DNA from: Streptococcus sp. LPB0220
GTDB lineage: Bacteria; Bacillota; Bacilli; Lactobacillales; Streptococcaceae
Length of the DNA: 64,000 nucleotides
Direction of reading: 5' to 3'
NCBI RefSeq assembly: GCF_008727815.1
Contig: NZ_CP044230.1
Location: forward strand, 1,286,001-1,350,000
Shown: positions 20,530 through 35,108 of the stretch, piece by piece
Layout of the letters: every line of letters starts with the position of its first letter
Numbering within the stretch: position 1 is the first letter of the stretch
Program-made: the position numbers and the translations under genes
Notes under the pieces: model-generated
The model's database searches: none
The model's input: the letters and a program-made list of their open reading frames with translations, nothing else
What the model was told of the DNA's origin: nothing

Positions 20530-20623
20530 GTAAAACTCCTTAAGAAATTTTAAGTTTATTTTAAGATTATACCACAAAGGTTTTCAGAAGAAAAGGAATT
20601 TTCAGAAAATTTTAGTTTATGAA

Positions 20624-20647
20624 AAAACTACTCCGAAGAGTAGTTTT
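20624..20647 (-). terminator. hairpin terminator
   Basis: A perfect stem AAAACTACTC / GAGTAGTTTT with loop CGAA and six T on the minus strand, downstream of the M42 peptidase gene. Confidence 0.7.
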
Positions 20648-20735
20648 GAATAGAATCAAATCCTTTTAAAATCAAGTGACATAGTGATACATAATAATTG
20701 AAATCATTGATTTTAGATCCAAACAAAAGTATACT

Positions 20736-20872
20736 GAAACTTTCCGCAGTGAGAAAAGTGCTTGAAACAGTACGTTTCAAGCACTCGGGAGTTTTGAAAC
20801 CTTAGGTTCAAAACTAAGTCATGGAACTTCGGAGAAGTTCGCTGACGTCCGTATTCATCCAAGGAAAGTTTC
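20736..20872. other. multi-branched inverted-repeat element, candidate structured RNA or MITE
   Basis: An outer stem GAAACTTTCC (20736-20745) / GGAAAGTTTC (20863-20872) encloses three separate hairpins: 20758-20784 (11-bp perfect stem, GTGCTTGAAAC / GTTTCAAGCAC), 20791-20814 (GTTTTGAA / TTCAAAAC) and 20824-20840 (GAACTTC / GAAGTTC). No reading frame fills it. It could fold on either strand. No second copy is in the window. Confidence 0.55.
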
Positions 20873-20923
20873 TAAAATAACTCTCTCTTCAATCTAAACC
20901 ACTACGTAATATAGTTGTTATTT

Positions 20924-21961
20924 TTAATCTACCAAGTCGCTCTTGAGGTAGGCATCGACCATGCGCTCTGTTGCGACTACAGAATCCAAGTGAGTCCGCT
21001 CATATGAGTGGCTAGATTCGATCCCTGCTCCAAGAAGGGCATGTTTGACTTCTGCTCCTGCGCTCATGGCTGCAGAGGCATCTGATCCATAGAAAGGATA
21101 GATGTCCAACTTATAAGGGATTTCTTGGGCTTTTGCAAGAGCCACCAAATGCTGACGGAACTCATAGTGATATGGTCCAGAAGCGTCTTTGACACAGATG
21201 GATACCGTGTATTCATCCGTCGCTTGGTCATCTCCCATAGCTCCCATGTCCACTGCCAAGTATTCGATCACTTCAGCTGGAATACTAGAATTAGCCCCAT
21301 GCCCCACTTCTTCAAAGACTGAAAAGGCAAAGGTGGTCGTTACTGGCAATTGGATCTTCTCTTCCTTGTACACGCGCAGAAGATTCAAGAGAATCGCCGC
21401 ACTCACCTTGTCATCTAAGTGACGAGATTTGATAAAGCCGGTGTCTGTCACAATGGTCCGGGGATCAAAGCTGACAAAATCACCCACTTCAATGCCAAGG
21501 GCAAGGGTTTCTTTTTCATTGGTCACTTTTTCATCCAGACGGACTTCCATATTGTCCTGGGTCCGCTCGACAGTCCCCGCATCCTTGTAGACATGGCAAG
21601 AAGTCTGATGAACCAAAATCGTCCCAGAATGGGTCTTTCCTGTATTAGCCACATGGACTGTACAGTTTTCCCCTTCAATCATATTCCAAGGGAAACCACC
21701 GATACGGTCCAGCTTGAGTCGACCATCTGCTTTCACAGCGCGGACAATAGCCCCCAAGGTATCCACATGGGCTGTGACATAGCGTTGTTTGTCTGTGATC
21801 ACACCAGGCACGGTCACATTCACGCCACCCTTAGCAGTCCGAATTACTTCGTACCCAAAGCCTTCAATGGTTTTGACCAAGTAGTCTGCAATCTCCCGTG
21901 TAAAACCGGTCGGTGAAGGAATGGCTGTCAATTCCTGCAAATAAGTCACTGTCTGATTCAT
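20924..21961 (-). CDS. M42-family glutamyl/general aminopeptidase
   Basis: A 345-residue cytoplasmic metallo-aminopeptidase. M42 features: AHVDTLG (metal His and Asp, about 68), HLDDKVSAA (about 181, bridging Asp), FEEVGHGAN with the catalytic Glu pair (about 216), VDMGAMG, and a late His in ERTHLDS. These enzymes form large dodecamers and finish the breakdown of imported peptides. That fits the neighbouring peptide-binding lipoprotein and surface peptidases. Confidence 0.88.
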   Translation of the reverse strand: MNQTVTYLQELTAIPSPTGFTREIADYLVKTIEGFGYEVIRTAKGGVNVTVPGVITDKQRYVTAHVDTLGAIVRAVKADGRLKLDRIGGFPWNMIEGENCTVHVANTGKTHSGTILVHQTSCHVYKDAGTVERTQDNMEVRLDEKVTNEKETLALGIEVGDFVSFDPRTIVTDTGFIKSRHLDDKVSAAILLNLLRVYKEEKIQLPVTTTFAFSVFEEVGHGANSSIPAEVIEYLAVDMGAMGDDQATDEYTVSICVKDASGPYHYEFRQHLVALAKAQEIPYKLDIYPFYGSDASAAMSAGAEVKHALLGAGIESSHSYERTHLDSVVATERMVDAYLKSDLVD

Positions 21962-22024
21962 AATGCCTCCAAATGTGTTTTTCTTTATTCTAGCATGAAA
22001 TAGGTGGAATAGCTAGAGGAGAGT

Positions 22025-22544
22025 TTACAGGTTAGCGTTTTTCAACTCTTCCCTTACTTACATTAAGAGAAGGCCTAGCTTGTTTTTTTCCAGTGATATC
22101 TCTCCCATCAGCCCAGTAGTCGTCATTTTGTGTATGTTCGATGAGGATGGCATCTCCTGTCGCGAGCAATTCTTTCGCGATTTCTGGATTTTGGCTAAAT
22201 TTCATTCGAAGGGCCTGGAGCATCACTTTATTTTTGACCTCTTCCCAATCTGGTCTCAAGGGATTTTGACGATTACGTCCCTCTAAAGCAGCATCCATTG
22301 GAGATGCTATCTGACGAATTTTCTCTTGAATTTGGGGCACTAATACAGTATCTGATGACAAAATGCTGGCTTTTTCTTCTGCTTGTTTATCCTCTACAAG
22401 TTTAGCTTCAGCCAATTCAATCTCTTTGCAACTTTGTTTAGCAGTAGAATGTTGACCAGCAGTATATCCCATCATGAGAATAAAGCTAGTTGCAGCTACT
22501 GTTCCAACACTAATTAAGGCTTTAGTTTTGACTTTATTTAACAT
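22025..22544 (-). pseudogene. membrane-anchored remnant of a NADAR (YbiA-like) protein
   Basis: An open frame of 170 residues (22032-22544) starts with a basic stretch and a membrane segment (about 10-28), then a charged linker. It then carries only the C-terminal half of a NADAR domain: LRPDWEEVKNKVMLQAL, KFSQNPEIAKELLATGDAI and DDYWADG. Removing one A from the seven-A run near 22082-22088 restores a NADAR-like tail (GKNKLGLLLM, a stop, VREELKNANL) ending at 22025. The gene therefore looks truncated, fused, frameshifted and interrupted by a stop. NADAR enzymes remove ADP-ribose; the half with part of the active site is missing here. Confidence 0.6.
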
Positions 22545-22571
22545 CTTAGACCTTCTTTCTATAAAAACTAA

Positions 22572-22609
22572 GTCAAGAATACCAGATAAAGCTTGAAAAA
22601 AGTATCACA
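22572..22609. repeat. 38-bp imperfect direct repeat, left copy
   Basis: The first 24 bases match 28667-28690 at 23 positions; after a 7-base unlike stretch both copies have TATCACA. The two copies have the same orientation and equal length and are each followed by a small hairpin terminator. Together they bracket the regulator/transporter/precursor block. Confidence 0.7.
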
Positions 22610-22620
22610 GAAGTAAAAAT

Positions 22621-22636
22621 GCCACCCGAAGGTGGC
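22621..22636 (-). terminator. hairpin terminator after the 10-codon frame
   Basis: Stem GCCACC / GGTGGC with loop CGAA, followed on the minus strand by A and then five T. Confidence 0.65.
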
Positions 22637-22678
22637 CAATATAACTTACAAAATTAGTAATCCGTCTGATAAATTTTT

Positions 22679-22711
22679 TTATACAAACCATTTTTCAGAT
22701 ATCATAGACAT
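22679..22711 (-). CDS. possible 10-residue peptide (MSMISEKWFV)
   Basis: A ten-codon frame with a consensus ribosome site (AAGGAGG, 8 bases before the ATG), its own upstream promoter with the shared ATGAGTA-N4-GTGCA box, and a terminator behind. A one-base shift at the end would add ten more residues. It may be a signal peptide, a leader, or the start of a broken gene. Nothing in the sequence decides between these. Confidence 0.35.
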   Translation of the reverse strand: MSMISEKWFV

Positions 22712-22738
22712 AATGATTTCCTCCTTAATTACTAATAG

Positions 22739-22779
22739 ATTATCAAATTTACTGTTTATTAGAATGAGTAATATGTGCA
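22739..22779 (-). promoter_or_regulatory. promoter with shared regulator box, site 1
   Basis: The box ATGAGTA-ATAT-GTGCA (22764-22779, read on the plus strand) lies 19 bp upstream of a GATAAT -10 (22739-22744) for the minus-strand 10-codon frame. There is no good -35, as expected for an activator-dependent promoter. Confidence 0.55.
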
Positions 22780-22800
22780 ATTTTTGTAAATAAATTAAAA

Positions 22801-22821
22801 AAGCTGCATCTTCTGCAACTT
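22801..22821 (-). terminator. terminator of the LuxR-type two-component operon
   Basis: Stem AAGCTGCA / TGCAACTT (one wobble pair) with a 5-base loop and a T-run on the minus strand, two bases beyond the response-regulator stop. Confidence 0.65.
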
Positions 22822-22822
22822 T

Positions 22823-23419
22823 TTAATCTGGTGGAAAATAGCCCAACTGCTCAGCGATGTGAATCGCCTCCTGCCTGTTAGTCACTCCCAATTTTGAAAA
22901 GATATTGGCCAAGTGATTGGAAACTGTACGTTTACTCACATAGACCTTGTCACAGACATCATCAATGGTCAAGCCATTTCTAACCAGTTCTAGTATCTCG
23001 ATTTCTCGTGGTGTTAGCACCTCTACCATCACTTCATCTGAAAAGACCTTACCACCTAAATAAATCTTTTCCAGTTTTTTCACCAACTCATCTGGGTCCA
23101 CACTTTTGTCCAGAAAGCCATAAGCCCCCATAACTTTAGCTCGGTGTTCATACATTTTTTTACTGTAACCTGTCAAAATCACAACCTTACTAGAACAACC
23201 ATTATCGATAATCTCTTGTGCCAAGGTCAGCCCATCATCTTGATACAGACTCGTCAGGTTGATGTCAATCAAAATAATGTCGTAGTCATTAAAAGCAATC
23301 TCCGAAATAGTCGAAAAATTATCCACTAACTGGACCTTTTTAATGTTTTCCGATAACTCTAAAATCATCTTGATACTTTGGCTAAATAATTTATGATCAT
23401 CAATTAACAAAATTTTCAT
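22823..23419 (-). CDS. LuxR/NarL-type response regulator
   Basis: A 198-residue regulator. The receiver domain has the acidic pair in LLIDDH, the phospho-acceptor Asp in IILIDINL (about 54) and the switch Lys in FLDKS. The C-terminal LuxR helix-turn-helix is at about 132-190 (LTPREIEILELV ... VSKRTVSNHLANIFSKLGV). I prefer the ATG at 23419 to one six codons up. It overlaps the kinase gene by 20 bases. It is the likely reader of the ATGAGTA-N4-GTGCA boxes nearby (inference). Confidence 0.88.
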   Translation of the reverse strand: MKILLIDDHKLFSQSIKMILELSENIKKVQLVDNFSTISEIAFNDYDIILIDINLTSLYQDDGLTLAQEIIDNGCSSKVVILTGYSKKMYEHRAKVMGAYGFLDKSVDPDELVKKLEKIYLGGKVFSDEVMVEVLTPREIEILELVRNGLTIDDVCDKVYVSKRTVSNHLANIFSKLGVTNRQEAIHIAEQLGYFPPD

Positions 23420-24974
23420 AACACAACTCCTTATCAATCGGGAGAGTAATTTCTACACGAAATCTCTTATTATTTTCAAAAATCTGCATTTGACCACCTA
23501 AAACACTAATTTTATTAGACATATTTTTCAAGCCATAACCTAAGGATTTTTCTGTTTGAAGGCAGTCATTTTCAGAAATGATAAAAATAGCGTCATCATG
23601 CACATCAATCTTCAAAGAAATCCTTCCACCACTAGCATACTTAACGGCATTGGTCGCCAACTCCTCAACCAGACGATAGGCAATTTTATCGTAAGGAGAT
23701 AAAAGCCTAAAGTGGGCAGGAAACTGTGTGACTACTTCATTTTCTGCGTGATAGCGTTTGACAATCCGATTAATCAGCCCTTGATACTGGATGTCTAACT
23801 GCTCGTCTGTTTCTACCATTGGCTGATAATAATCCATCCGCTCACGAATCCGCTGAACCAACTCCTCTGTTACCAGATTGATCTGTTCACCAAAAACTTG
23901 ATTACTACTATATTTATTGAAATTTTTTATTGCCATAACATTTTGCAGGATTTCATTGTGAAGAAATTCGGAGAACTGTTGTTCTGTATCTTCATTTGCC
24001 AGCAGATTTTTCACCATACGGTTACGCTTTAAAAAGAGAACTTTTACATAATCCCTAGAATCTAGCATTTCAGCAGAACGAAAGAGGCGAATTAATTCTT
24101 CCGAACAAATCCCGAACAATAGTAACATGATATTCAAGACCAAAAAGCTCGTGTTTAAATCTAGACGAAAGATGATGAAAATGCCTACTAACAAAAACAT
24201 AACCAGTAAAAACAAGCGTGAAAAAGCTTTTATATAGGACAATTTTAACTCTGATACCTTTTTTTGAAAAGAGCTGATAATTGTTTTGAAGTGTAAAAAA
24301 GCTAAAATGCCAACAATTTCCAGATACCAGACTAGGTTCATCACTCCTGAGCCCGTCGTATTGATATACAAAAAGAAATAAGAAAGAGGCAATATCAAAG
24401 CTAATATCCACAAATTTCGTCTCTGATACTTGAGTTTACTTTTCAACTCTTTATGATATAAAATCAGTAAAATCAAGGGAACAAGGTTTAAAAAGAAAGA
24501 CGCAAACAAGGACAGAAATAGAAAAATTGAAGGACTTAACAGATATGAACTAATGGTGATTAGTGTCAACACAAAGGACACACTCAACAGTTCTTCTCCT
24601 ATTTTCTCTCCCAGAAAGATAATAGACAGAGAACTATACAGCAATAAAAAAGAGTTGAGCGGATGAAGAATATCAAAAAAGTGCAACAGGGTGCTCGCAA
24701 CTCCTTGATTAAATATGGATTGCCAGCTAATGAGAAACATCATCAGGAGCAACCAAAGTTTCAACTCACTATACCGAAAGGTCACAATATTACAAATATA
24801 GCTAAATACAATTAAAGCAATAATCAGCAATAAAACCATCTGCAAGGAAAAATCTGTCGAAAAGTCCAGAGGGATCCTATGATAAATATAAATCATTAAA
24901 GCTAGATGATTCAAAATCGTCAACCACCACAATAAAAGTGAGTTTTTCGAGAACAATTTGACAAACTGTTTCAT
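23400..24974 (-). CDS. multi-spanning sensor histidine kinase (HisKA_3 type)
   Basis: A 524-residue kinase. About ten hydrophobic segments fill residues 1-285 with almost no extracellular domain. They are followed by a HisKA_3-like phosphotransfer helix (FLHNEILQNVMAIKN, His about 341) and an HATPase domain with N-box ELATNAVKYA and GYGLKNM. It pairs with the overlapping LuxR-type regulator. Kinases with buried sensors next to a Bce-type transporter often sense antimicrobial peptides through the transporter; here that is inference from position. Confidence 0.87.
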   Translation of the reverse strand: MKQFVKLFSKNSLLLWWLTILNHLALMIYIYHRIPLDFSTDFSLQMVLLLIIALIVFSYICNIVTFRYSELKLWLLLMMFLISWQSIFNQGVASTLLHFFDILHPLNSFLLLYSSLSIIFLGEKIGEELLSVSFVLTLITISSYLLSPSIFLFLSLFASFFLNLVPLILLILYHKELKSKLKYQRRNLWILALILPLSYFFLYINTTGSGVMNLVWYLEIVGILAFLHFKTIISSFQKKVSELKLSYIKAFSRLFLLVMFLLVGIFIIFRLDLNTSFLVLNIMLLLFGICSEELIRLFRSAEMLDSRDYVKVLFLKRNRMVKNLLANEDTEQQFSEFLHNEILQNVMAIKNFNKYSSNQVFGEQINLVTEELVQRIRERMDYYQPMVETDEQLDIQYQGLINRIVKRYHAENEVVTQFPAHFRLLSPYDKIAYRLVEELATNAVKYASGGRISLKIDVHDDAIFIISENDCLQTEKSLGYGLKNMSNKISVLGGQMQIFENNKRFRVEITLPIDKELCYENFVN

Positions 24975-25017
24975 ATGTATCTACTTCCTGAACTACTTTA
25001 ATATTATTATAACACAA

Positions 25018-25048
25018 TACCAGAATTGCAGGATAGGCAACTCTGGTA
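25018..25048. other. intergenic hairpin between permease and kinase genes
   Basis: Stem ACCAGAATTGC / GCAACTCTGGT (one mismatch) with a 7-base loop and no T-run on the minus strand. It may slow transcription or protect an mRNA end between the transporter and kinase genes. A TATAAT-like box follows at about 25006-25011. Confidence 0.4.
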
Positions 25049-25054
25049 TTTGAC

Positions 25055-27070
25055 TTAATTTTCAATAATTTGCCAACTTACTCTGTAAGTCACTAGCAAG
25101 TAAAGGACAAAGAGTAAAACCGCTACTCCCAGATAGGTGATATCAATAGAAATACTGGTATTAGCGAAATTCTCAAAATAGCCCAAAAGAGCGGTACTCA
25201 AGGCAAATGCTAGCGGACCTGCGATGACCAGCGGAACCAAGAAATAACTTAGAATCTGTTGCAAAAGAATAGAGCGATTTTGCTTCCTCTTATTCCCAAG
25301 AAGATATAAGATTTGATAATCATTGACACTATCCAAAGCACTTGTAGAAGTTTGAAGGGACAAGATACTGAGGGAAATAATGATAAAAATAACACTGACA
25401 AAAATCATGACAAAGACAATGACGCCCATAAATCCAAGATAAATCTCAAAAATTCTTCCTTTGGTTTGATAGGTGAACGGATTCAACTCTGCTCCATCAC
25501 GAATGAAGTAGTATTTTTCTATCCACTGACTTAAGAATGTTTCTACTTTCCGTTTGTCGATATTTTCTTTGAAATTGGCAACATAGGTCGTGTGGTCTTC
25601 CGTCAATCCAACTACTACCTTATCTGGTACAATTAAGGTTCCTGTATCATTTGTACCCACTGACGATAAAAAGTAAACTGTTTCAAGTGGATTCGAAGAG
25701 GCAAGGTTGAGAGAATGACCGTTAATCATGAGGGTTTTGGTCGTTGATAGAAAGTCCTGGATCTGCTTGGCAGTTCCTTTATAGTTTGCATTGACCAGAA
25801 ATTGGTTATCTGCCAAGTCAACCGCTTTTTCCCCTTGCAGTTTGCGGAGATGATTGTAGGCAGAAATTCCTAAAATCGGTACTTTTGATTCAGGAAGTTC
25901 CTTATCATGCGCCCAGAGATTGCTAGTATCAATCAAATCTTTATAGGTTAAATCACTAGAATAGATAGGATAGCTGTACTCCTCTTTGATAAGGTTAAAG
26001 TCAAATCCATCTGCTTTCAATCTGTCTTTGACAGATTCCTGAGAAAACTGGAACTCTTGACCACGATAAAGATTGACAGTTACATCATAAGGTGAGTATT
26101 TGTTCAGCTCTCGGTTCATAGTCGTATAGGCACTACCACTAAAAACTAGTAAGCTGAGAGCCAGTGTCAAGGTCAAGGATAAGACAGCCAACGTTACCGA
26201 ATTACTATCAGCTTGTTTTGAAAATTGACGAATTTTAAAACTGTTTAGTTTGTTATAGTAGGTTTGAGGCAGTTTTCTAAGGGAAACCAAGATAAAATGG
26301 CTCAAGGTATTGTAAAATAAAATCACAAAAATCACGAAGACAGATACCAGCAAGATACCCCAGCTTTTCAAGAATGATAGATGGTGATAGTCTGAAAAAT
26401 AGAGAGCACCAAAACCGATAACAGCTGTCGAAAGAATAAAGAGAAGTGCTTGAAGAACTGGCTTGCCTTTTGCCAAGACAGATTTCTTGACCCCATTTTC
26501 TTGAATGAGTGCAATGATATTTTGCTTTCTAAAGGTAAGAATGTCCATGACACCAACAATAAAACTGGTTACCAAATAGGAATAAACTAGTAAGATGACA
26601 GACTTGCTATCAAAAAAAAACAGACTACCAAAGTAATTGGCCATAAAAAACTCAGATGCAACCTTAGATAGAATGACCAGTAAAATCAAGCCAAGCAAGA
26701 AACCTAGAATCAAGGAAAAGATATTGACCAGCATGGTTTCAAAGAACAGGGTACGGATAATCTGCTTCTTCTTCATTCCCAGCGTTGCATAAAGTCCCAG
26801 CTCTTTCTTACGACGTCCCAGGACAAAGTTTGTGGAATAAACGACGAGAAAGGCAATCGCCGATAGAATCAGATAGGAAAGCAAGCCCATGTACTGACTC
26901 ATCACCGTCGTCAACATTTCCTTTGCCCCTGATAAACTTTGCATCACTGGATGGCTTGGTAAAGCATTAAAAGCATAGAGCAAGCTATAAATCAAGGTTA
27001 GACTGAAAAAGTAGATGGTGTAAGTCTGTAAATTTCGAAATACATTTCGTAAAATTAATTTTGGATACAT
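25055..27070 (-). CDS. FtsX-type ABC transporter permease, BceB-like
   Basis: A 671-residue permease: one N-terminal membrane helix, three more by about residue 170, paired helices at about 200-250 and 280-315, a large extracellular domain (about 315-520), and three C-terminal helices. This ten-helix layout with one big outer domain is that of BceB-type permeases, which free lipid II-bound peptide antibiotics. GAGGAAG precedes the ATG. It pairs with the ATPase 12 bp upstream. Confidence 0.82.
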   Translation of the reverse strand: MYPKLILRNVFRNLQTYTIYFFSLTLIYSLLYAFNALPSHPVMQSLSGAKEMLTTVMSQYMGLLSYLILSAIAFLVVYSTNFVLGRRKKELGLYATLGMKKKQIIRTLFFETMLVNIFSLILGFLLGLILLVILSKVASEFFMANYFGSLFFFDSKSVILLVYSYLVTSFIVGVMDILTFRKQNIIALIQENGVKKSVLAKGKPVLQALLFILSTAVIGFGALYFSDYHHLSFLKSWGILLVSVFVIFVILFYNTLSHFILVSLRKLPQTYYNKLNSFKIRQFSKQADSNSVTLAVLSLTLTLALSLLVFSGSAYTTMNRELNKYSPYDVTVNLYRGQEFQFSQESVKDRLKADGFDFNLIKEEYSYPIYSSDLTYKDLIDTSNLWAHDKELPESKVPILGISAYNHLRKLQGEKAVDLADNQFLVNANYKGTAKQIQDFLSTTKTLMINGHSLNLASSNPLETVYFLSSVGTNDTGTLIVPDKVVVGLTEDHTTYVANFKENIDKRKVETFLSQWIEKYYFIRDGAELNPFTYQTKGRIFEIYLGFMGVIVFVMIFVSVIFIIISLSILSLQTSTSALDSVNDYQILYLLGNKRKQNRSILLQQILSYFLVPLVIAGPLAFALSTALLGYFENFANTSISIDITYLGVAVLLFVLYLLVTYRVSWQIIEN

Positions 27071-27082
27071 ACTCTCTTCCTC

Positions 27083-27820
27083 CTATCTGGTACAGCTGTA
27101 AATCTCTTGCAAATACTGTTCATTAGATAAGCTGTTACGTTCCAAATCATCCATAATCTTTCCATCGCTAAGTAGCACCATCCGTGAAGAGTACTTGGCT
27201 GCGGCAGGGTCATGCGTAACCAGTAAAATGGTAATACCAAAACTTTTATTGATTTCCTGCAAAAGTGCCATCAGTTTTTCAGAATTGGCAGAGTCCAAGG
27301 CTCCTGTCGGCTCATCTGCGATAATCAGTTTAGAATCATCAATCAAGGCTCTAGCAGTTGCCACACGTTGTCGCTGGCCACCTGATAACTGATTAGGAAA
27401 CTTATCTTTTAAGTTTTGAATGGCCAACTTATCCAAAATTTCCTCAATCTTATACTGATGTTTTTTGATATTTTTCCCCTGAATTTGAAGAGGTAGAATG
27501 ATATTTTCATAGACCGTCAAGGTTTCCACCAAGTTGTAGGCTTGGAAAATATAGGAAATGTTTTTAGCACGATAGTCAGCTAGTTCATTTTCCTTGGCAT
27601 GGATGATGTCAAAATCTTCAAATCGAATCTCACCTGATGTTGGTTTATCAATCGTTGAAATACAGTTGAGGAGTGTTGTTTTTCCACTACCACTGGCACC
27701 CATAATTGCCAGAAATTCACCTTTTTCAACGGACAAGTTCACATCTAATAAAGCATGAACGATATTATCCCCTTGACCAAATGTTTTCGTTAATCCTGTC
27801 ACAATAAGCTGTTTCATCAT
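27083..27820 (-). CDS. ABC transporter ATP-binding protein, BceA-like
   Basis: A 245-residue ATPase of the MacB/BceA class: Walker A GASGSGKTT (about 40), Q-loop FQAYNLVET, signature LSGGQRQR (about 147), Walker B LIIADEPTGALD. GGAGG precedes tandem ATG codons. It has its own promoter with the shared ATGAGTA-N4-GTGCA box, so its level probably follows the LuxR-type system encoded downstream. Confidence 0.9.
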   Translation of the reverse strand: MMKQLIVTGLTKTFGQGDNIVHALLDVNLSVEKGEFLAIMGASGSGKTTLLNCISTIDKPTSGEIRFEDFDIIHAKENELADYRAKNISYIFQAYNLVETLTVYENIILPLQIQGKNIKKHQYKIEEILDKLAIQNLKDKFPNQLSGGQRQRVATARALIDDSKLIIADEPTGALDSANSEKLMALLQEINKSFGITILLVTHDPAAAKYSSRMVLLSDGKIMDDLERNSLSNEQYLQEIYSCTR

Positions 27821-27850
27821 TTCATTCCTCCGTTTCTTTATTACTCTCTC

Positions 27851-27893
27851 ATTATACGGTTTCTTTCAAGGTTTTCCATGAGTATTTTGTGCA
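27851..27893 (-). promoter_or_regulatory. promoter with shared regulator box, site 3
   Basis: The box ATGAGTA-TTTT-GTGCA (27878-27893, plus-strand reading) lies 21 bp from a perfect TATAAT -10 (27851-27856) for the BceA-like gene. No -35 hexamer is correctly spaced. Confidence 0.6.
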
Positions 27894-27913
27894 GTATATT
27901 CAAGTTATAAAAA

Positions 27914-27938
27914 ACCGATACCTTTTTCAGGTATCGGT
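27914..27938 (-). terminator. terminator after the 35-residue peptide gene
   Basis: A 9-bp perfect stem ACCGATACC / GGTATCGGT with seven-base loop, followed on the minus strand by six T. It separates the precursor transcript from the transporter operon. Confidence 0.85.
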
Positions 27939-27947
27939 CGATGTTGA

Positions 27948-28055
27948 TTATTTGCGATCGTTTCTTTTTTTCATAAAGTAAACAATCCCTATGACAATAA
28001 CTCCTAAGACCAGTACAGGTGCATAGAATTCTAGTGTTCCAATAATTCCTTCCAT
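27948..28055 (-). CDS. 35-residue single-span membrane peptide
   Basis: It encodes a peptide beginning MEGIIGTLEFYAPVLVLGVI, with one membrane segment (about 10-28) and a basic tail KKRNDRK. A full AGGAGG lies five bases before the ATG, so translation is likely. It follows the first broken precursor with a 31-bp gap and precedes a terminator, so the two share a transcript. Small, basic, one-helix proteins beside bacteriocin genes are often immunity or accessory peptides; that role is inferred. Confidence 0.65.
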   Translation of the reverse strand: MEGIIGTLEFYAPVLVLGVIVIGIVYFMKKRNDRK

Positions 28056-28086
28056 TTTATCCTCCTATCAAAAAATAGAGGTAGTT

Positions 28087-28263
28087 TTATCCACAGCGCA
28101 CGTTTGGCGAAGTACATTCATAAGAATATGTAAACCACCAACCACAGCGACCTTGTACTGTTAATCTAACAGTCGTACGTCACCCAGCAGTATATTTAAT
28201 ATTTAACTCTTGGCTATTAATTTCATAATCCAAAGAATCAATCTCAAAATGGTCTTGTTTCAT
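28087..28263 (-). pseudogene. lantibiotic-like precursor 1, stop at leader/core junction
   Basis: The frame starts MKQDHFEIDSLDYEIN, continues to YTAG (27 codons), meets TGA (28180-28182), and then runs on without a gap for 30 codons to a Cys-rich end that includes GRCGWWFTYSYECTSP and NVRCG. The leader has the acidic 'EIDSL...QEL' pattern and would end in a Gly-Gly-like site if TGA were GGA. TYSYEC fits the TxSxEC ring motif of lacticin 481/mersacidin-type lantibiotics. A strong promoter and AGGAGA site precede it. As written it yields only the leader. Confidence 0.6.
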
Positions 28264-28280
28264 TTGTATTTCTCCTCGTA

Positions 28281-28309
28281 AATATAACACCAAATCAAAG
28301 TGTTGTCAA
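28281..28309 (-). promoter_or_regulatory. strong promoter of precursor 1
   Basis: -35 TTGACA (28304-28309), 17 bp, -10 TATATT (28281-28286) on the minus strand. It lacks the shared regulator box, so it looks constitutive, unlike precursor 2. Confidence 0.75.
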
Positions 28310-28349
28310 TGCTTTGTAATAAAACTCAAGAATTTTCCTTTTGTTTTAT

Positions 28350-28528
28350 CTAACAACAAACATTATTTCTCGTATACTCATAGGAACAGGTGAAACACAA
28401 TCCACAGCGACCTGCTAGTGTCATTTTAAAAGCTATGCACCACTAGCTCCTGATTTCCCGGAAAGTTCTTGGTTTTCAACCTCGAAACTTAGAGAATCAA
28501 TCTCTGGACGACTTGTATTTTTAGACAT
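28350..28528 (-). pseudogene. lantibiotic-like precursor 2, frameshift at leader/core junction
   Basis: A leader MSKNTSRPEIDSLSFE...NQEL...GASG (30 codons) is followed by GCA and a stop (28433-28435). The next frame then continues CIAFKMTLAGRCGLCF, TCSYEYTR, NNVCC and stop. The region is 179 bp, one base short of 60 codons, so a single deletion explains it. The core aligns with precursor 1 (GRCG, FT.SYE, NV.C). GAAGGAGG precedes the ATG, and the promoter carries the shared regulator box. Confidence 0.6.
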
Positions 28529-28574
28529 AAGGTTGCCTCCTTCCTTCTTTTAGATGATCATCATTACAGTAACT

Positions 28575-28617
28575 AGTATAAACTCTAGTATTGGCTAAGT
28601 AATGAGTAAATCGTGCA
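28575..28617 (-). promoter_or_regulatory. promoter with shared regulator box, site 2
   Basis: The box ATGAGTA-AATC-GTGCA (28602-28617, plus-strand reading) lies 21 bp from a TATACT -10 (28575-28580) for precursor 2. The spacing is the same as at site 3. Confidence 0.6.
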
Positions 28618-28666
28618 AGTTTCTTATTTTCGAGAAAAATTTTTATAGTGCCCAATTAAAAAGTAG

Positions 28667-28704
28667 GTCAAGCATACCAGATAAAGCTTGGAGCTTTTAT
28701 CACA
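28667..28704. repeat. 38-bp imperfect direct repeat, right copy
   Basis: Same orientation and length as the copy at 22572-22609: 23 of the first 24 bases identical and TATCACA at the end. It sits between the precursor 2 promoter and the LanG-type gene terminator. Confidence 0.7.
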
Positions 28705-28707
28705 AGA

Positions 28708-28727
28708 AAAAGACTCCGAAGAGTCTT
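28708..28727 (-). terminator. terminator of the LanFEG-type operon
   Basis: Stem AAGACTC / GAGTCTT with a CGAA loop and T-rich tail on the minus strand, just after the last transporter gene. Confidence 0.7.
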
Positions 28728-28731
28728 CGCA

Positions 28732-29460
28732 TTACTTATGCAATTCTTTATTACTCAATGTATGAAAAATCCCCCACAGAAGAATATTTACAATGATAAA
28801 CAGCAATATTTCCACTAAATTAAAGTCTATCAAATTCCGTGACCGCATTGCCACCATAGCTTGGGAGTAGGGATAGATTAAAGATAATTTATCAGATACA
28901 AAAATCATCATGAATCCTACGAAAGTACCAATAGAACCAATTCCCACAGATTTACTAAAAACACGAGTTTTAGCTGTCACAAAAAACTGTACTGCCATCA
29001 TACTAATTGTTCCAAAAATCCCCAATAAATCCCACTTAAGGTAGGTGAACAAATTAGAAATTTCTAAATGAATTAGGTGAGCACTGACATAAAAAATACC
29101 AAACAAGAACAACTGTAAAACAGCAATAAACAAGATAATTACTATTTCTTTTGCCAACAATAATTTCCCAAGACTGACATTATTAGCTCTGAGAAATTCA
29201 ATATTTTTCCTATCAAACTCTTTTCCTAACATCATGGCTACATAAATGCTGACTAAAATCGGAAAGAAAAGCTGGCTATAATAGAAGGTCAATTGTCCCC
29301 ATAAAACAGGCACTTTTTCACTTTCTGCAACCATAGAATAAGCTGCACCTAAGTAAATCCCAAGACCAATCAGGCTACAAAAAGCTAAGAAGAAAATACC
29401 AATCATCAACATGGAAAATTTTTGGGTTTTCCGCCATTCTACTGATAGATAAGACATCAT
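28732..29460 (-). CDS. lantibiotic immunity ABC permease, LanG-type
   Basis: A 242-residue ABC-2 permease with six hydrophobic segments. Start MMSYLSVEWRKTQKFS and size match the LanG subunit of LanFEG self-protection pumps, which expel lantibiotics from the membrane. It is translationally coupled: its ATG overlaps the stop of the LanE-type gene, with AAAGGAGG in front. It is the last gene of the operon and a terminator follows. Confidence 0.78.
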   Translation of the reverse strand: MMSYLSVEWRKTQKFSMLMIGIFFLAFCSLIGLGIYLGAAYSMVAESEKVPVLWGQLTFYYSQLFFPILVSIYVAMMLGKEFDRKNIEFLRANNVSLGKLLLAKEIVIILFIAVLQLFLFGIFYVSAHLIHLEISNLFTYLKWDLLGIFGTISMMAVQFFVTAKTRVFSKSVGIGSIGTFVGFMMIFVSDKLSLIYPYSQAMVAMRSRNLIDFNLVEILLFIIVNILLWGIFHTLSNKELHK

Positions 29461-30206
29461 AGCTTGCCTCCTTTCTTTTCAACTAGATAGAGAGATAAGA
29501 AGAGATAGATTAGGGCTATTGGCAAATATGTAAAGAGTTTAAATCCTAGATTTGTCGCAAAAACATAACTCACTTGACTGGCGACTTTCTGGTAATCCAC
29601 CAGAGACAGATATGCTATACCACCAAATGGGAAAATCAGCTGTAGAAAAGCTGTTGCATGACCAAATCCAACTCCAAGAAATCCTCCGAAAATCCCTAAT
29701 GCCATTATCAATGCCTGCTTTTTCAGTAAAAACTGCAAAGTCAAAAACAGACAGGTTAAGACAAAAGATGCTAGCAAGAAAATGACGATTTGCCAGAGGA
29801 TTAGGCTAACAGGCATTTCTAGACCAGAAAAGTTTGCAATCAACTGGACTACTACTCCCTCCAAAATAGCGAGAAAGGTCAAAACGAACATAGTCAGGGC
29901 TAGCTTACTCAGAAAGATATGCCGTAGATTTTCACCATTTGCCAAAAGCAGTTTGAAAGTGTTGCCCTCCTTCTCGTTCTTGACAATCCGGGATACAAAG
30001 AGAGCGACCACGATAGGGAGAATCAAGCCATTTACTTCTTTTATCATATAGAAAATTAGGTTAATCTGGTGCATGGCTGGATTACTTAGGTAACGTGTAG
30101 CGGCTACAATTGCCCAAGCAAATCCGACTCCCATAACTAGTATGCTAATGAGGAAGGATTTGGTTCGTTTTGCCTTGAGCAATTCAATAGACAAATTATT
30201 CAACAT
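29457..30206 (-). CDS. lantibiotic immunity ABC permease, LanE-type
   Basis: A 249-residue ABC-2 permease with six membrane segments. The N-terminus 'LSIELLKAKRTKSFLISI' and the cytosolic 'KNEKEGNTFKLLLANG' loop are typical of LanE/MutE proteins. I chose ATG 30206 (AAGGAG eight bases before) over a GTG three codons up that overlaps the LanF stop. It forms the pump with the LanF and LanG partners. Confidence 0.8.
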   Translation of the reverse strand: MLNNLSIELLKAKRTKSFLISILVMGVGFAWAIVAATRYLSNPAMHQINLIFYMIKEVNGLILPIVVALFVSRIVKNEKEGNTFKLLLANGENLRHIFLSKLALTMFVLTFLAILEGVVVQLIANFSGLEMPVSLILWQIVIFLLASFVLTCLFLTLQFLLKKQALIMALGIFGGFLGVGFGHATAFLQLIFPFGGIAYLSLVDYQKVASQVSYVFATNLGFKLFTYLPIALIYLFLSLYLVEKKGGKL

Positions 30207-30211
30207 AAGAC

Positions 30212-31123
30212 TCACTCCTTGGTTAAGTTAAGGAAGATAGATTCCAAGGTTTCTTGTTCTTGCTTCACTTCATAAATTGGAACTTTCTCGACTATTAAAT
30301 CTCGTAACAAACTAGAAATCTGCTGATCGGCAAGGTTAGTCAGCTTGAGTTTATCCTCTTGTATCTCTAACATCTTGCACGGATAACCAAATAACACTTG
30401 GCTAATGACTTCACGTCGATCTCTAAAATCCCCACGCACTTCCAGCCATTTATTGGACTGAATTTTACGAATTTCTCCCTCGTAAACCAGTTGACCATGA
30501 TTGATAATCCCCACACGGTCAGCGATATGCTCAACTTCAGAAAGGATATGGGTAGAGATGAAGACAGTAATGCCCTGTTCTTTTGCCAACTTGATAATCA
30601 GTTCCCGAATTTCATGAATCCCTGCTGGGTCTAGCCCGTTTGTTGGCTCATCCAGTATCAACAAACGCGGTTTCTTGACTAAGGCAAAGGCTAAAGCCAA
30701 ACGCTGTTTCATACCCAGAGAATAATCTTTAACCAATTTTTTCTTGTTTTTAGGTTGATCTAACCCTACAATTTTCAAGGTTTCCTGAATATTTTTCTTA
30801 TCAAATCCAAGGATTTTTTGAAAGACCAAGAGATTTTCATAGCCTGTCAAATTAGGATAATAAGACGGTTCTTCAATCATAGAGCCAATCTGATTAAGAT
30901 ACTGCTTGTCCGTACCTATAGATTGACCGAACACTTCAATCTCCCCAGCTGTACGAGAAATCAAAGACAAAATCATCTTCATGGTTGTTGTTTTCCCAGC
31001 TCCATTTGGACCTAGAAAACCATAAATCTCACCTTGTTGAACTGATAAGGAACTAAGGTTAACTACCTGAGTGTCCTTAAATACCTTTTGTAAGTTTTTT
31101 ATCTGTAAAACATTACTAATCAT
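30212..31123 (-). CDS. lantibiotic immunity ABC ATPase, LanF-type
   Basis: A 303-residue ATPase: Walker A GPNGAGKTTT (about 37), signature YSLGMKQRL (about 134), Walker B LLILDEPTNGLDP, switch ISTH, plus a 90-residue C-terminal extension typical of the LanF/BcrA class. The ATG at 31123 has GAGGAGG upstream; an upstream TTG is part of that site and is unlikely. First gene of lanFEG, divergent from the LanR-type regulator. Confidence 0.85.
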   Translation of the reverse strand: MISNVLQIKNLQKVFKDTQVVNLSSLSVQQGEIYGFLGPNGAGKTTTMKMILSLISRTAGEIEVFGQSIGTDKQYLNQIGSMIEEPSYYPNLTGYENLLVFQKILGFDKKNIQETLKIVGLDQPKNKKKLVKDYSLGMKQRLALAFALVKKPRLLILDEPTNGLDPAGIHEIRELIIKLAKEQGITVFISTHILSEVEHIADRVGIINHGQLVYEGEIRKIQSNKWLEVRGDFRDRREVISQVLFGYPCKMLEIQEDKLKLTNLADQQISSLLRDLIVEKVPIYEVKQEQETLESIFLNLTKE

Positions 31124-31315
31124 TATGAACTTCCTCCTCAACGAGATTCATTTGTTGTTTAGCCATTTGGAAATACCTCACTGATTAAAATTTATTTGAG
31201 AAGTATCTCTATCTAGGTTATGTCTTTATTATAGACATGCTAGATTAATTTTAAACTAAGCTAACCTTAATTTTACATTAAGATTAAAGTGTCTTACTTT
31301 TTTCACTCTTTTAAA

Positions 31316-31324
31316 TGGTATAAT
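31316..31324 (+). promoter_or_regulatory. extended -10 of the LanRK-type operon
   Basis: TGGTATAAT has the TGn extension and a perfect -10, 21 bp before the regulator ATG. A weak TTACTT lies 19 bp upstream. On the other strand TATAAT at about 31229-31234 could serve lanFEG. Confidence 0.55.
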
Positions 31325-31345
31325 ATAGATAAGCGAGGTAAGATT

Positions 31346-32044
31346 ATGAATTTCGAACAACAGCTCCTGAATAAGCACATCCTTATCATTGATGACGATA
31401 AAATTTTAAACTCTTCCATAAGAGATATTCTCACTGCCCACGGATTTTCCAATCTAACATCAGCCTATGATATAGAATCTAGTTTGGACATGATTGAAAA
31501 AGATCAGTTCGACCTTTTCCTTTTGGACATTATGCTCCCCGATGGTGATGGCTACACATTAGCAAAACATATCCGAAAAAAAGGCGATACACCTATCCTC
31601 TTTCTGACTGCCAAAAATAATCCTGAAGATGAGGTAGCTGGTTTCAATGCTGGTGGTGATGATTATGTCATGAAACCCTTCATTCCAAAAAATCTTATCT
31701 ATCGCATTATGGCTCTGCTCCGGAGAAGCTATAAATTAGAACAGGAAGCAATACAGATTGGACAGACTTTGGTGAGTTTTCGGAATGCAACAGTACAAAA
31801 AAATGGAGCAGAAATTTCTATTACCCCAATTGAAATTCAGATTTTGAAAAAACTTTACGATAATAAAAATTACATCGTTTCAACCGAATCTCTCTGTGAT
31901 ACGATTTGGGGAGTGGATAGCTTTGGTTATGAAAACTCTTTGACTGTACATATTCGGAAAATTCGAGAAAAAATAGAAGAAAATCCTTCAAAGCCTCAAT
32001 ATTTAAAGACAGCTAAAGGGCTGGGATATAAATTGTTATCATGA
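31346..32044 (+). CDS. OmpR-type response regulator, LanR-like
   Basis: A 232-residue regulator. The receiver has IIDDDK (acidic pair), the phospho-acceptor Asp in LFLLDIMLP (about 60) and switch Lys in VMKPF. The C-terminal winged helix ends 'SLTVHIRKIREKIEENPSKPQYLKTAKGLGYKL'. I chose ATG 31346 with GAGG in front. Its stop overlaps the kinase start (ATGA). Divergent from lanFEG, so that pump is its likely target. Confidence 0.87.
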   Translation: MNFEQQLLNKHILIIDDDKILNSSIRDILTAHGFSNLTSAYDIESSLDMIEKDQFDLFLLDIMLPDGDGYTLAKHIRKKGDTPILFLTAKNNPEDEVAGFNAGGDDYVMKPFIPKNLIYRIMALLRRSYKLEQEAIQIGQTLVSFRNATVQKNGAEISITPIEIQILKKLYDNKNYIVSTESLCDTIWGVDSFGYENSLTVHIRKIREKIEENPSKPQYLKTAKGLGYKLLS

Positions 32045-33411
32045 TTATGAACCAAACCAAAATTTTAAGGTATTCACTAAAAAGATTTATCTTTTTTTCC
32101 ATCATTATCTTTATTACCAATATTATTCTAATTGCCAGTTTTGTTTTCTACATTAGGGAAAAGCAAACTGCTACTGAGACTGTGAAAATAATTTCTGAAC
32201 ACATTACCATCACAAAAGATAACGTCCACATACCTAAAAATGATGTTTCTAGTCTAAAAGAACAAAAGTTATGGCTCATGATATTGGATAAGCAGACTGG
32301 AAAACAAGTGTTCGAACAGTATAAACCTACAGAAGTTCCTTCGCAATTTGACTATGGGGACATTTTACAGTTTTCTCGCTATTATCTTTCAGATTATCCT
32401 GTTTTTAGTCAGATAAAAGGTGACTACATCATTGTTGTTGGTTTTCCAAAAGATAAAATTGCTCGTTATACTTATAATTACTTAGATATAGATAGTATTC
32501 GCCTGATTCCGCTAGTAGCATTTGGAGTATTGCTTTTCAACTGCCTCTATTTCGCTTTTCTTTACTACTATTGTGTGACGCATATCAATCGTAAAATTGC
32601 GCCTCTTGTAACTGCTATTCAGAATCTCCCGGATGGTCTGAAAAATCCAATAAATTCTATATCAGAACTAGAATATCTTACAACTGCAATTAATCAAACC
32701 GATACTCTACTCAAAGAGAATGAAGTCTTTAAAGAGCAATGGATTTCAGGTATTGCACACGATATCAAAACACCTCTTTCTGTCATCATTTCTAACGCGT
32801 CCTTGTTAAATGATTCTGAACTAGATACACAGTCTAAAAAACATATTCCCCCAATATTGACGGAATCCTATTACATCCAAAATATTTTAAATGATCTAAA
32901 TATAGTAGCTCGCCTTTCATCCGGTCATCTTCAATTAAATCAGACTGAAACAAAAATTATCCCCTTCTTCAAAGACATTCTCATCCATATTTTAAATCAA
33001 GAAATCTGGAATGATTTTGAATTTGAATTTGATTACGATAATTCACTTGTTAATCAATCTATCATGATTGAGCAGTTTTTAATCACAAGAGTTATCCATA
33101 ATATCATCTACAACTCTGTTTTACATAACGAAAAGGGTTGCACAATAAGAATCCACTTATTCAAAAAAGATACAAATGTAATTGTCGAAATCAAAGATAA
33201 TGGACAGGGAGCTTCACCAGAAAAAATTGCTGAACTTAATGAATTATCTTTTAAAAGCATTGATATTTCTAAAATTAGAACGACTGGAATTGGGCTAAAA
33301 ATTTCAAAACAAATTGTTGATTTGCATCAGGGCTCTATTTCATTTGCTAGTGTCCAAAATGAATTCTTTGAAAGTATCATTTCACTTCCGATTTTCAACA
33401 TTACCAATTAG
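32041..33411 (+). CDS. sensor histidine kinase, LanK-like
   Basis: A 456-residue kinase: membrane segment about 14-36, an extracellular domain of about 120 residues, a second membrane segment about 158-180, then HisKA with GIAHDIKTPLS (His about 241), N-box VIHNIIYNSV and G-box TGIGLKISKQI. The sensor length suits LanK kinases of the NisK/SpaK type, which detect extracellular lantibiotics. It forms a two-gene operon with the overlapping regulator. Confidence 0.85.
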   Translation: MIMNQTKILRYSLKRFIFFSIIIFITNIILIASFVFYIREKQTATETVKIISEHITITKDNVHIPKNDVSSLKEQKLWLMILDKQTGKQVFEQYKPTEVPSQFDYGDILQFSRYYLSDYPVFSQIKGDYIIVVGFPKDKIARYTYNYLDIDSIRLIPLVAFGVLLFNCLYFAFLYYYCVTHINRKIAPLVTAIQNLPDGLKNPINSISELEYLTTAINQTDTLLKENEVFKEQWISGIAHDIKTPLSVIISNASLLNDSELDTQSKKHIPPILTESYYIQNILNDLNIVARLSSGHLQLNQTETKIIPFFKDILIHILNQEIWNDFEFEFDYDNSLVNQSIMIEQFLITRVIHNIIYNSVLHNEKGCTIRIHLFKKDTNVIVEIKDNGQGASPEKIAELNELSFKSIDISKIRTTGIGLKISKQIVDLHQGSISFASVQNEFFESIISLPIFNITN

Positions 33412-33413
33412 AT

Positions 33414-33452
33414 AAAAAAATGGAGAAGAATCATTAGAGTTTTCTCCATTTT
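33414..33452 (+). terminator. terminator of the LanRK-type operon
   Basis: Stem AAAAATGGAGAA / TTTTCTCCATTTTT (one bulge) with a 12-base loop and T-run, directly after the kinase stop. Confidence 0.8.
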
Positions 33453-33454
33453 TT

Positions 33455-33578
33455 TCATCTTATCTTCCACTTATACCCTGCCCAGCCCGCCAAGACAAGC
33501 AAAGCAAGGTTAAAGATGATAAAGAAAGTCGTAAAACCAATTAATCCATTCTGTGCCAAATCTTCCGTGTTGGAATTC
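33455..33578 (-). pseudogene. C-terminal fragment of a membrane protein cut by the IS
   Basis: In one minus-strand frame a segment reads EDLAQNGLIGFTTFF, continues IIFNLALLVLAGWAGY and ends KWKIR at a TGA (33455-33457). It has one clear membrane span and ends at the IS edge. The rest of the gene is not recognisable beyond the other IS end. Confidence 0.45.
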
Positions 33579-33609
33579 TGTCAATATTTTGGACACATTT
33601 TGGGAGGAA

Positions 33610-34483
33610 AATTTGAAGGGTAGCGCCCTTCGGTTGCTGGACCCTTTCTACGACCAATTCTCTGTACTCTACAGGGGACTAGTCATTCAATTTTTGTTGA
33701 ATTCTAGTTTCATTATAAAATATGATGTAATTTTTGACAATATCTGTTATACTATCTCCAGTTATGTTTCTTCACTTATGGAGAGAGAAGGTTTCAGACT
33801 TGAAAACAGAGTGAAACCATTCGATACAGGCATTATCTGCTGGTGTTCCTTTTCGGGACATGGAGCGGGTGATGCCTTTTTCTGTACAAGGCTGATAGTA
33901 GGCTTTTGAGGTGTAGACAGATCCCTGATCGCTGTGTAAAAGTACCCCTTGAGGTAGCTCAAGTTGATGAAGTGTATCGAGTACAAAGTTAGTATCTTGG
34001 CAATCGGAGATGGTATAAGCTACAATTTCGCGATTATAGAGATCCATAATCGAAGATAGATAAAGTCTACAGTTTCCAAAGTAGAGGTAAGTGATGTCTA
34101 TGACAAGCTTCTCCATAGGCTTGTCTGCCTGAAAATCACGATCCAGTTTATTGTCTGTTACATGGTAAGCCTTCCCTAATTTAGGTCCCTTCTTAGGACG
34201 GACACGGCAAAGGCAACCCTTTTCCTTCATAATACGATAGACCTTCTTTCGATTAACGACAAGATTATACACTTTCTTGAGCAAGCGAGTGATGGTTCGA
34301 TAGCCATAAATAAAGTGATTTCTCATATAGAGTTGTTCAATTTTATCTGCTATTTCGCCTCTTTTCTGAGAATTCTTACACTCCTGTTTCCAGCGATAAA
34401 GGTGGAGCGTTTGACGCCGAAACATTCTAAAATAATAGATACAGCGCACGTTTTCTTATACTCTTCTACTAGCTTGATAAGAC
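33610..34483 (-). pseudogene. IS3-family transposase orfB with frameshift and stops
   Basis: DDE transposase remains: GYRTITRLLKK, DITYLYFG (first Asp), MDLYNREIVAY (second Asp), HSDQGSVYTS, and the Glu region IEWFHSVFKSE. Damage: near 34395 one T is missing from the run before YRWKQE, separating the N-terminal helix; a TGA follows FSLHK (33772); a TAG interrupts the usual tail as LND-stop-SPVEYR. Three lesions make it non-functional. Confidence 0.75.
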
Positions 34484-34774
34484 TTACTTTGTCGATTCTC
34501 TTATCAAGCTCTGATACTTTTTTAGTAATTCTACCTGCAAACGTAACTGTTCCACTTCAGATAACTGTTTCATCCCATTACCATAAGTATATTGTTTCCC
34601 CACGGGTTGGTGGAAACGGTACAATTCATCATTCTGATACCATCGCAACCAGTTCTTGGCCTGACTAGCATTTTTGATACTGAGGGTATCCATGATAACT
34701 TTATTTGATTTGCCTGCCTTCTTCATTTCGATACAGGCTAACTTAGTTTCTACCGAATATGCTTTTTTGACCAT
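34484..34774 (-). CDS. IS3-family orfA (transposase N-terminal part)
   Basis: A 96-residue helix-turn-helix protein with a leucine-zipper-like end (SEVEQLRLQVELLKKYQ). Near its end lies the slippery heptamer A AAA AAG, the usual -1 frameshift site that fuses orfA to orfB in this family. The downstream orfB is broken, so only OrfA could be made. The start codon lies just after a hairpin that hides its ribosome site. Confidence 0.75.
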   Translation of the reverse strand: MVKKAYSVETKLACIEMKKAGKSNKVIMDTLSIKNASQAKNWLRWYQNDELYRFHQPVGKQYTYGNGMKQLSEVEQLRLQVELLKKYQSLIRESTK

Positions 34775-35108
34775 AACAAAACACTCCTGTTTCTAGTTTA
34801 CCAGATTTCAACAGGAGTGTTTTCTTGTGTCTCATTTTATGGGTGCAGTGCCGACCCTAGGGATTCTTTCGTTCTCATATATACGTCATTAGTATAGGCT
34901 AATTTGATTTAAATTCCAAGAGAAATAACATTTTACATAAAAATCAGTGGGTATTTTACAATTTTTCCATATAATATAGCTAAAAAACAACTGGTTTTAA
35001 GAATTCTTATCTGAAACATTCGGAAATTTCCCTTAACCGTAGCGGAAAGTTGTTTTCTTCTCCTATTTATAATAGACTATCACTAACATTAGATGAAAAG
35101 GTGACTCT

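Follow-up and report, generated by a model that had tools for sequence, protein, structure and literature searches.

A probable immunity-and-sensing remnant of a pneumolancidin lantibiotic cluster in Streptococcus sp. LPB0220, with two decayed precursor genes and a conserved 35-residue ORF

The window analysed here is a stretch of 64,000 nucleotides from Streptococcus sp. LPB0220 (assembly GCF_008727815.1, contig NZ_CP044230.1, positions 1,286,001-1,350,000 of the forward strand), and its coordinates count from its first letter; the genome that carries it is called G000. Two precursor genes lie on the minus strand, B ahead of A, together with a 35-residue ORF, four genes of the PldF, PldE, PldK and PldR types (F, E, K and R below) and a stub of lanM (Table 1). 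The original prediction had described A and B as two lantibiotic-like precursors, each broken between leader and core with the core still readable, and the minus strand indeed carries the two leaders, each followed by its break and by a readable core, at the coordinates given. In A the leader is followed by a stop codon and then, in the same frame, by a core ending in GRCGWWFTYSYECTSPNVRCG. In B the leader ends after SGASGA, and the core, AGRCGLCFTCSYEYTRNNVCC, stands in a different frame.

Table 1. Features of the pld-type locus in the window
Feature	Position	Strand	Remark
Precursor B, chimeric frame-broken pld precursor gene (indicated PldA1-type upstream region and leader, PldA3-type core)	28350..28528	-	
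Indicated crossover (28448-28454) at the SGSG leader/core junction and adjoining frame break	28437..28454	-	
Sigma-70-like promoter TTGACA-17-TATATT, upstream of A and the small ORF	28281..28309	-	consensus match
Precursor A, PldA4-type pseudogene, nonsense codon at the leader/core junction	28087..28263	-	
35-residue membrane-peptide ORF preceded by the ribosome site AGGAGGA; candidate for a third immunity component	27948..28055	-	
Intrinsic-terminator-like hairpin, 11-pair stem and U-run, directly 3' of the small ORF	27913..27939	-	
ABC ATPase, PldF-type	27083..27820	-	intact in 20/20 close relatives
FtsX-type permease, PldE-type	25055..27070	-	intact in 20/20 close relatives
Histidine kinase, PldK-type	23400..24974	-	UhpB-like; HATPase_c weak; intact in 20/20 close relatives
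LuxR-type response regulator, PldR-type	22823..23437	-	full length in 20/20 close relatives (tblastn)
lanM stub: the 5' flank plus roughly 10 initial codons, ended by a stop	22664..22780	-	

Window DNA 28060-28560 is matched in 30 of 284 genomes of the genus, and the 20 matches that cover at least 445 of the 501 bases, the window's own genome among them, form our close set. No full-length precursor stands at the locus in 18 of these 20 genomes, which we refer to as the remnants (G000 included). The search for intact homologues that the original prediction had proposed was successful, since in G132 and G170 the locus is complete: besides four intact precursors it encodes LanM and LanT, and the ATPase, permease, kinase and regulator stand there in the same order as in the window, with F, E, K and R proteins 95-98% identical to the window's. 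All four G132 precursors match the salivaricin M family of NCBIfam (NF040663) at 106.7-118.2 bits against a cut-off of 60, and the lantibiotic-like peptide family first suspected is therefore real. Alignment indicates that A and B of the window are decayed precursors of this pneumolancidin (pld/salivaricin M) family.

Beyond the close relatives, G109, G079, G201, G107, G255 and G160 hold two to five full-length precursors with LanM, as counted by an HMM on stop-free stretches in which a start codon was not required and with a seed that includes precursors of three of the searched genomes; a stop is present in LanM of G079 and in LanT of G201. Of the 32 carriers examined, 7 have a complete and open LanM at the locus. 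Full-length precursors occur at the locus without a full LanM in G210 (two), G220 (one) and G254 (two), and G099, which has no LanM match, carries an intact PldA1-like ORF at another genomic site (L043:9639-9821). Thus, precursor loss did not always follow the loss of LanM. In G254, a 97-residue ORF (L041:9176-9469) begins with roughly the first 48 residues of LanM and continues in frame into a PldA3-type precursor; it is another deletion product of the cluster. Named records that carry the kinase (17 loci) include S. mitis, S. pseudopneumoniae, S. parasanguinis, S. oralis and S. rubneri. Since a tree of F, E and K leaves the remnants without one supported clade (support 39), it does not prove a single loss.

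The biosynthetic part of the cluster is gone from the window. No LanM beyond the stub was found across the G000 genome by a search that detects the full protein in G132 and G170, and no lanT was found at the locus (window 19001-36000), the region in which it was sought. Over that same region there is no full-length precursor, LanM or LanT, as a functional class II lanthipeptide cluster would have. The ATPase, FtsX permease, kinase and LuxR-type regulator, in contrast to this loss, are present as a pld immunity and regulation module, in the order of the complete clusters and orthologous to their genes. The match of the window kinase to Pfam HATPase_c is weak and below the cut-off. Among the close relatives, R passes a strict intactness test in 16 of 20, while by tblastn it extends over its full length without a stop in every one.

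Precursor B is not simply one paralogue with a missing base. With G132 as reference, all 57 sites that distinguish PldA1 from PldA3 in the upstream region and the leader, down to 28454, are of the A1 kind, and the 33 from 28448 onwards to the end of the gene are without exception of the A3 kind. These sites indicate that B is a recombinant of a PldA1 leader and a PldA3 core with its crossover at 28448-28454. The frame is lost at the crossover or at most about 15 bases from it, the gap being placeable no more exactly, and the deletion and the frame loss could be two events. The SGSG junction, from codon 26, is where the two genes share their best 15-mer match (13 of 15 bases), and a deletion between the tandem genes is therefore expected to fall there. 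All 18 remnants have the B break, and all keep the B start codon; in G179, the leader has been fused to the end of the last core by an additional deletion. The original prediction of two paralogues with small junction lesions thus holds for the breaks themselves, but B as a simple paralogue gives way to a recombinant of two.

The lesion of A is separate from that of B, which agrees with the earlier suggestion that production had been lost twice, by distinct lesions in two lantibiotic precursors. A nonsense codon occupies the junction of A in 14 of the 18 remnants and comes in two kinds, seven genomes with the window's kind and seven with the other, so that more than one mutation has probably struck this codon. 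The seven genomes with the other kind have also lost the frame and the start codon of the A leader, and the start codon of A is gone from 11 of the 18 altogether. In an intact A4 homologue, two of the nine transitions that create a stop fall in the junction codon, and the coincidence of the A and B lesions is therefore not remarkable. Their shared position had been called striking and had led to the thought that an unusual recoding, with stop readthrough in A and frameshifting in B, might still produce both precursors. The cores are still readable in G000, as this would require, but recoding is highly improbable, because the lesions of A vary from one relative to another (a single codon with two kinds of stop, frameshifts in the leader, further stops that pile up in the core, a lost start), no constraint is seen in the cores, LanM is only a stub and the intact relatives do without recoding; the best A1/A3 match and a stop codon one step away account for the position. 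A sequencing or assembly error, also offered at the outset, might be suspected where breaks sit in small paralogous genes. However, its probability is practically negligible given that the same B break recurs in 18/18 genomes and the same A stop in 7/18, and that G179 is deleted even further.

The precursors differ from F, E, K and R in their substitution patterns. Counted as distinct silent, replacement and nonsense changes, the A leader has 7:15:1, the B leader 4:10:0, the A core 5:20:5 and the B core 8:17:0, and none of these four segments has a silent excess in the 18 remnant genomes (P 0.40 and 0.70 for the two leaders). A strong silent excess is found in F (68:26:0), E (178:112:0) and K (112:77:0), each counted in all 18 genomes, and in R (43:22:0), counted in the 14 of 18 that pass the intactness test; the zero nonsense changes of R are a selection artefact, since only genomes passing that test were counted. 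Pooled pairwise pN/pS is 1.06 and 1.09 in the cores, 0.41 and 0.48 in the leaders, and 0.09-0.20 in F, E, K and R. The precursors therefore show no sign of constraint, whereas purifying selection acts on F, E, K and R. It had been proposed that the leaders were kept as signals for the two-component systems after the cores were lost, and the B start codon retained in every remnant and the leader pN/pS values below those of the cores would fit such a role. This is nevertheless very unlikely, because neither leader has a silent excess, A has so often lost its start codon and LanM is only a stub; in addition, no LanT beside the locus would export a leader, and a review, in the part available, names the PldA1-3 peptides as the inducers acting through PldK (PMC7595303). 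It is similarly unlikely, if by a slightly smaller degree, that the whole segment including F, E, K and R is decaying baggage too young to have broken. Recombination may move young copies around, and the F-E-K tree is poorly resolved, but the silent excess of the four genes has no counterpart in the cores of the same genomes, and F, E and K are intact in all 20 close relatives.

The promoter, the ribosome site and the leader frame, all of which the original prediction had seen as retained, are truly present in this genome, but a downstream ORF explains the promoter better than the leader does. The promoter matches 11 of 12 consensus positions, with TG ahead of the second hexamer, and both hexamers are identical in all 18 remnants. 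It leads through the dead A into a 35-residue ORF, MEGIIGTLEFYAPVLVLGVIVIGIVYFMKKRNDRK, whose ribosome site is kept in 17 of the 18 and which is followed by a hairpin of -17.5 kcal/mol (z -4.87). Read from sequence, the peptide consists of a hydrophobic span followed by MKKRNDRK. Pfam contained no family that it matched, and NCBIfam only two sorting-signal models, both below the cut-off; we take these matches as a shared hydrophobic-basic pattern and reject a sorting-signal identity. Of 279 genomes, 31 have the ORF, and exactly these 31 encode the permease (E below 1e-60); in each of them the two lie on one strand, with the ORF 0.88-1.79 kb upstream. The copy in G047 is detected by tblastn, though missed by a regular expression. 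In G084 there are two tandem copies (L044:9730-9834 and L044:9240-9344) and only one partial precursor fragment.

Among 11 segments compared, the small ORF is the least variable, with a pairwise difference of 0.011 against 0.080 and 0.084 in the cores and with 5 variable sites in 108 against 24 in 92 and 28 in 98 (P below 1e-4); its pooled pN/pS is 0.21. Against six distant clusters, pS is 0.52-0.66 and pN 0.03-0.13, while the comparison with the close G132 reveals no constraint (pS 0.039, pN 0.038). Likewise, identity to 11 distant clusters is 74-94% for the small ORF, 75-82% for F and 62-76% for E, but identity to G132 is 91%, lower than that of F (97%) and E (96%). Constraint on the ORF thus rests on the low diversity among remnants and on the comparison with distant clusters. 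As a small peptide with a single predicted span and a basic C-terminus that is genetically tied to a transporter, it has the features of a VraH-like protein, and we propose it, by analogy, as a VraH-like third part of pneumolancidin immunity. That this peptide, covered by no curated family model and, across distant clusters, mostly better conserved than the transporter, routinely forms the third part of pneumolancidin-type immunity in streptococci, with the dead A as the 5' untranslated region of its transcript, is a tentative reading on which we stand close to evenly divided.

Taken together, the locus is very probably the immunity-and-sensing remnant of a class II lantibiotic cluster of the pneumolancidin (salivaricin M) family. 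In the course of events that we favor, a deletion between tandem precursors would have joined the PldA1 leader to the PldA3 core out of frame to give B, and the PldA4-type precursor A would have gained a nonsense codon at the same junction. A cell that no longer produces the lantibiotic may then, judging from the literature, sense the pneumolancidin-type peptides of its neighbours through PldKR, and PldFE, presumably with the proposed 35-residue VraH-like membrane peptide, would protect it. Because the small ORF would keep the upstream promoter in use, A would survive as a 5' untranslated region. The double lesion would then be ordinary gene decay with a concrete cause, namely recombination of tandem precursors at their best-matching stretch; non-producing streptococci would keep a kit for sensing and resisting pneumolancidin, and a very short ORF is now a direct candidate for a role in lantibiotic immunity.

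Other features border the pld remnant. A direct repeat of 34 bases (22562-22595 and 28657-28690, 91% identical) lies at both of its edges and may mark insertion or exchange of the pld segment; of the 17 other remnant genomes, 14 cease to match the window close to the right copy, at 28645-28666. Directly abutting the remnant is a second lantibiotic immunity and regulation module (window 28732-33411) with permeases weakly resembling MutE and MutG and an ABC ATPase; the opposite strand encodes its OmpR-type regulator and kinase. This module is seen in 3 of 20 fetched stretches from close relatives, and in G099 a copy of it lies near the intact PldA1-like ORF (L043). Further along, at window 33772-34449, is an IS3-family transposase that is probably truncated, as it matches only positions 116-332 of a 369-position model.

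Among known systems, the staphylococcal transporter VraDEH is BceAB-like, and the gene for VraH is placed differently from the position upstream of the ATPase gene that the small ORF occupies in the window. The likeness to VraH is an analogy of features: in VraDEH of S. aureus, as far as the accessible description goes, a small transmembrane peptide with a basic C-terminus is tied to an FtsX-type transporter, as in the window, and the positively charged C-terminus of VraH, the small transmembrane part of the complex, matters for gallidermin resistance (PMC5786555). In the available parts of the literature searched, Maricic et al. (2016) excepted, no peptide of this sort is described for pld loci. 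The pld locus itself, in the accessible text of a review, has PldA1-4 in tandem; killing requires PldA1-3, which also signal through PldK, and immunity to pneumolancidin comes from PldFE (PMC7595303). According to the available portion of its description, the pld locus of S. pneumoniae P174 (Maricic et al. 2016) shares with the window its gene set of tandem precursors, PldFE transporter and PldKR regulators and includes the exporter PldT; compared with it, the window has two dead precursors, only a stub of lanM and no lanT beside them. Closest of all is a remnant already in print. Two of three S. mitis genomes were described in 2017 as carrying pldFEKR with two upstream fragments disrupted by stops and similar to pldA1-3 and pldA4 (PMC5729180), and, on the accessible part of that report, the window locus is another instance of it, with the same genes kept and the same number and type of precursor fragments. 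Relative to that portion of the report, what is new here is the explanation of B as a chimera, the tallies from 18 genomes and the description of the 35-residue ORF.
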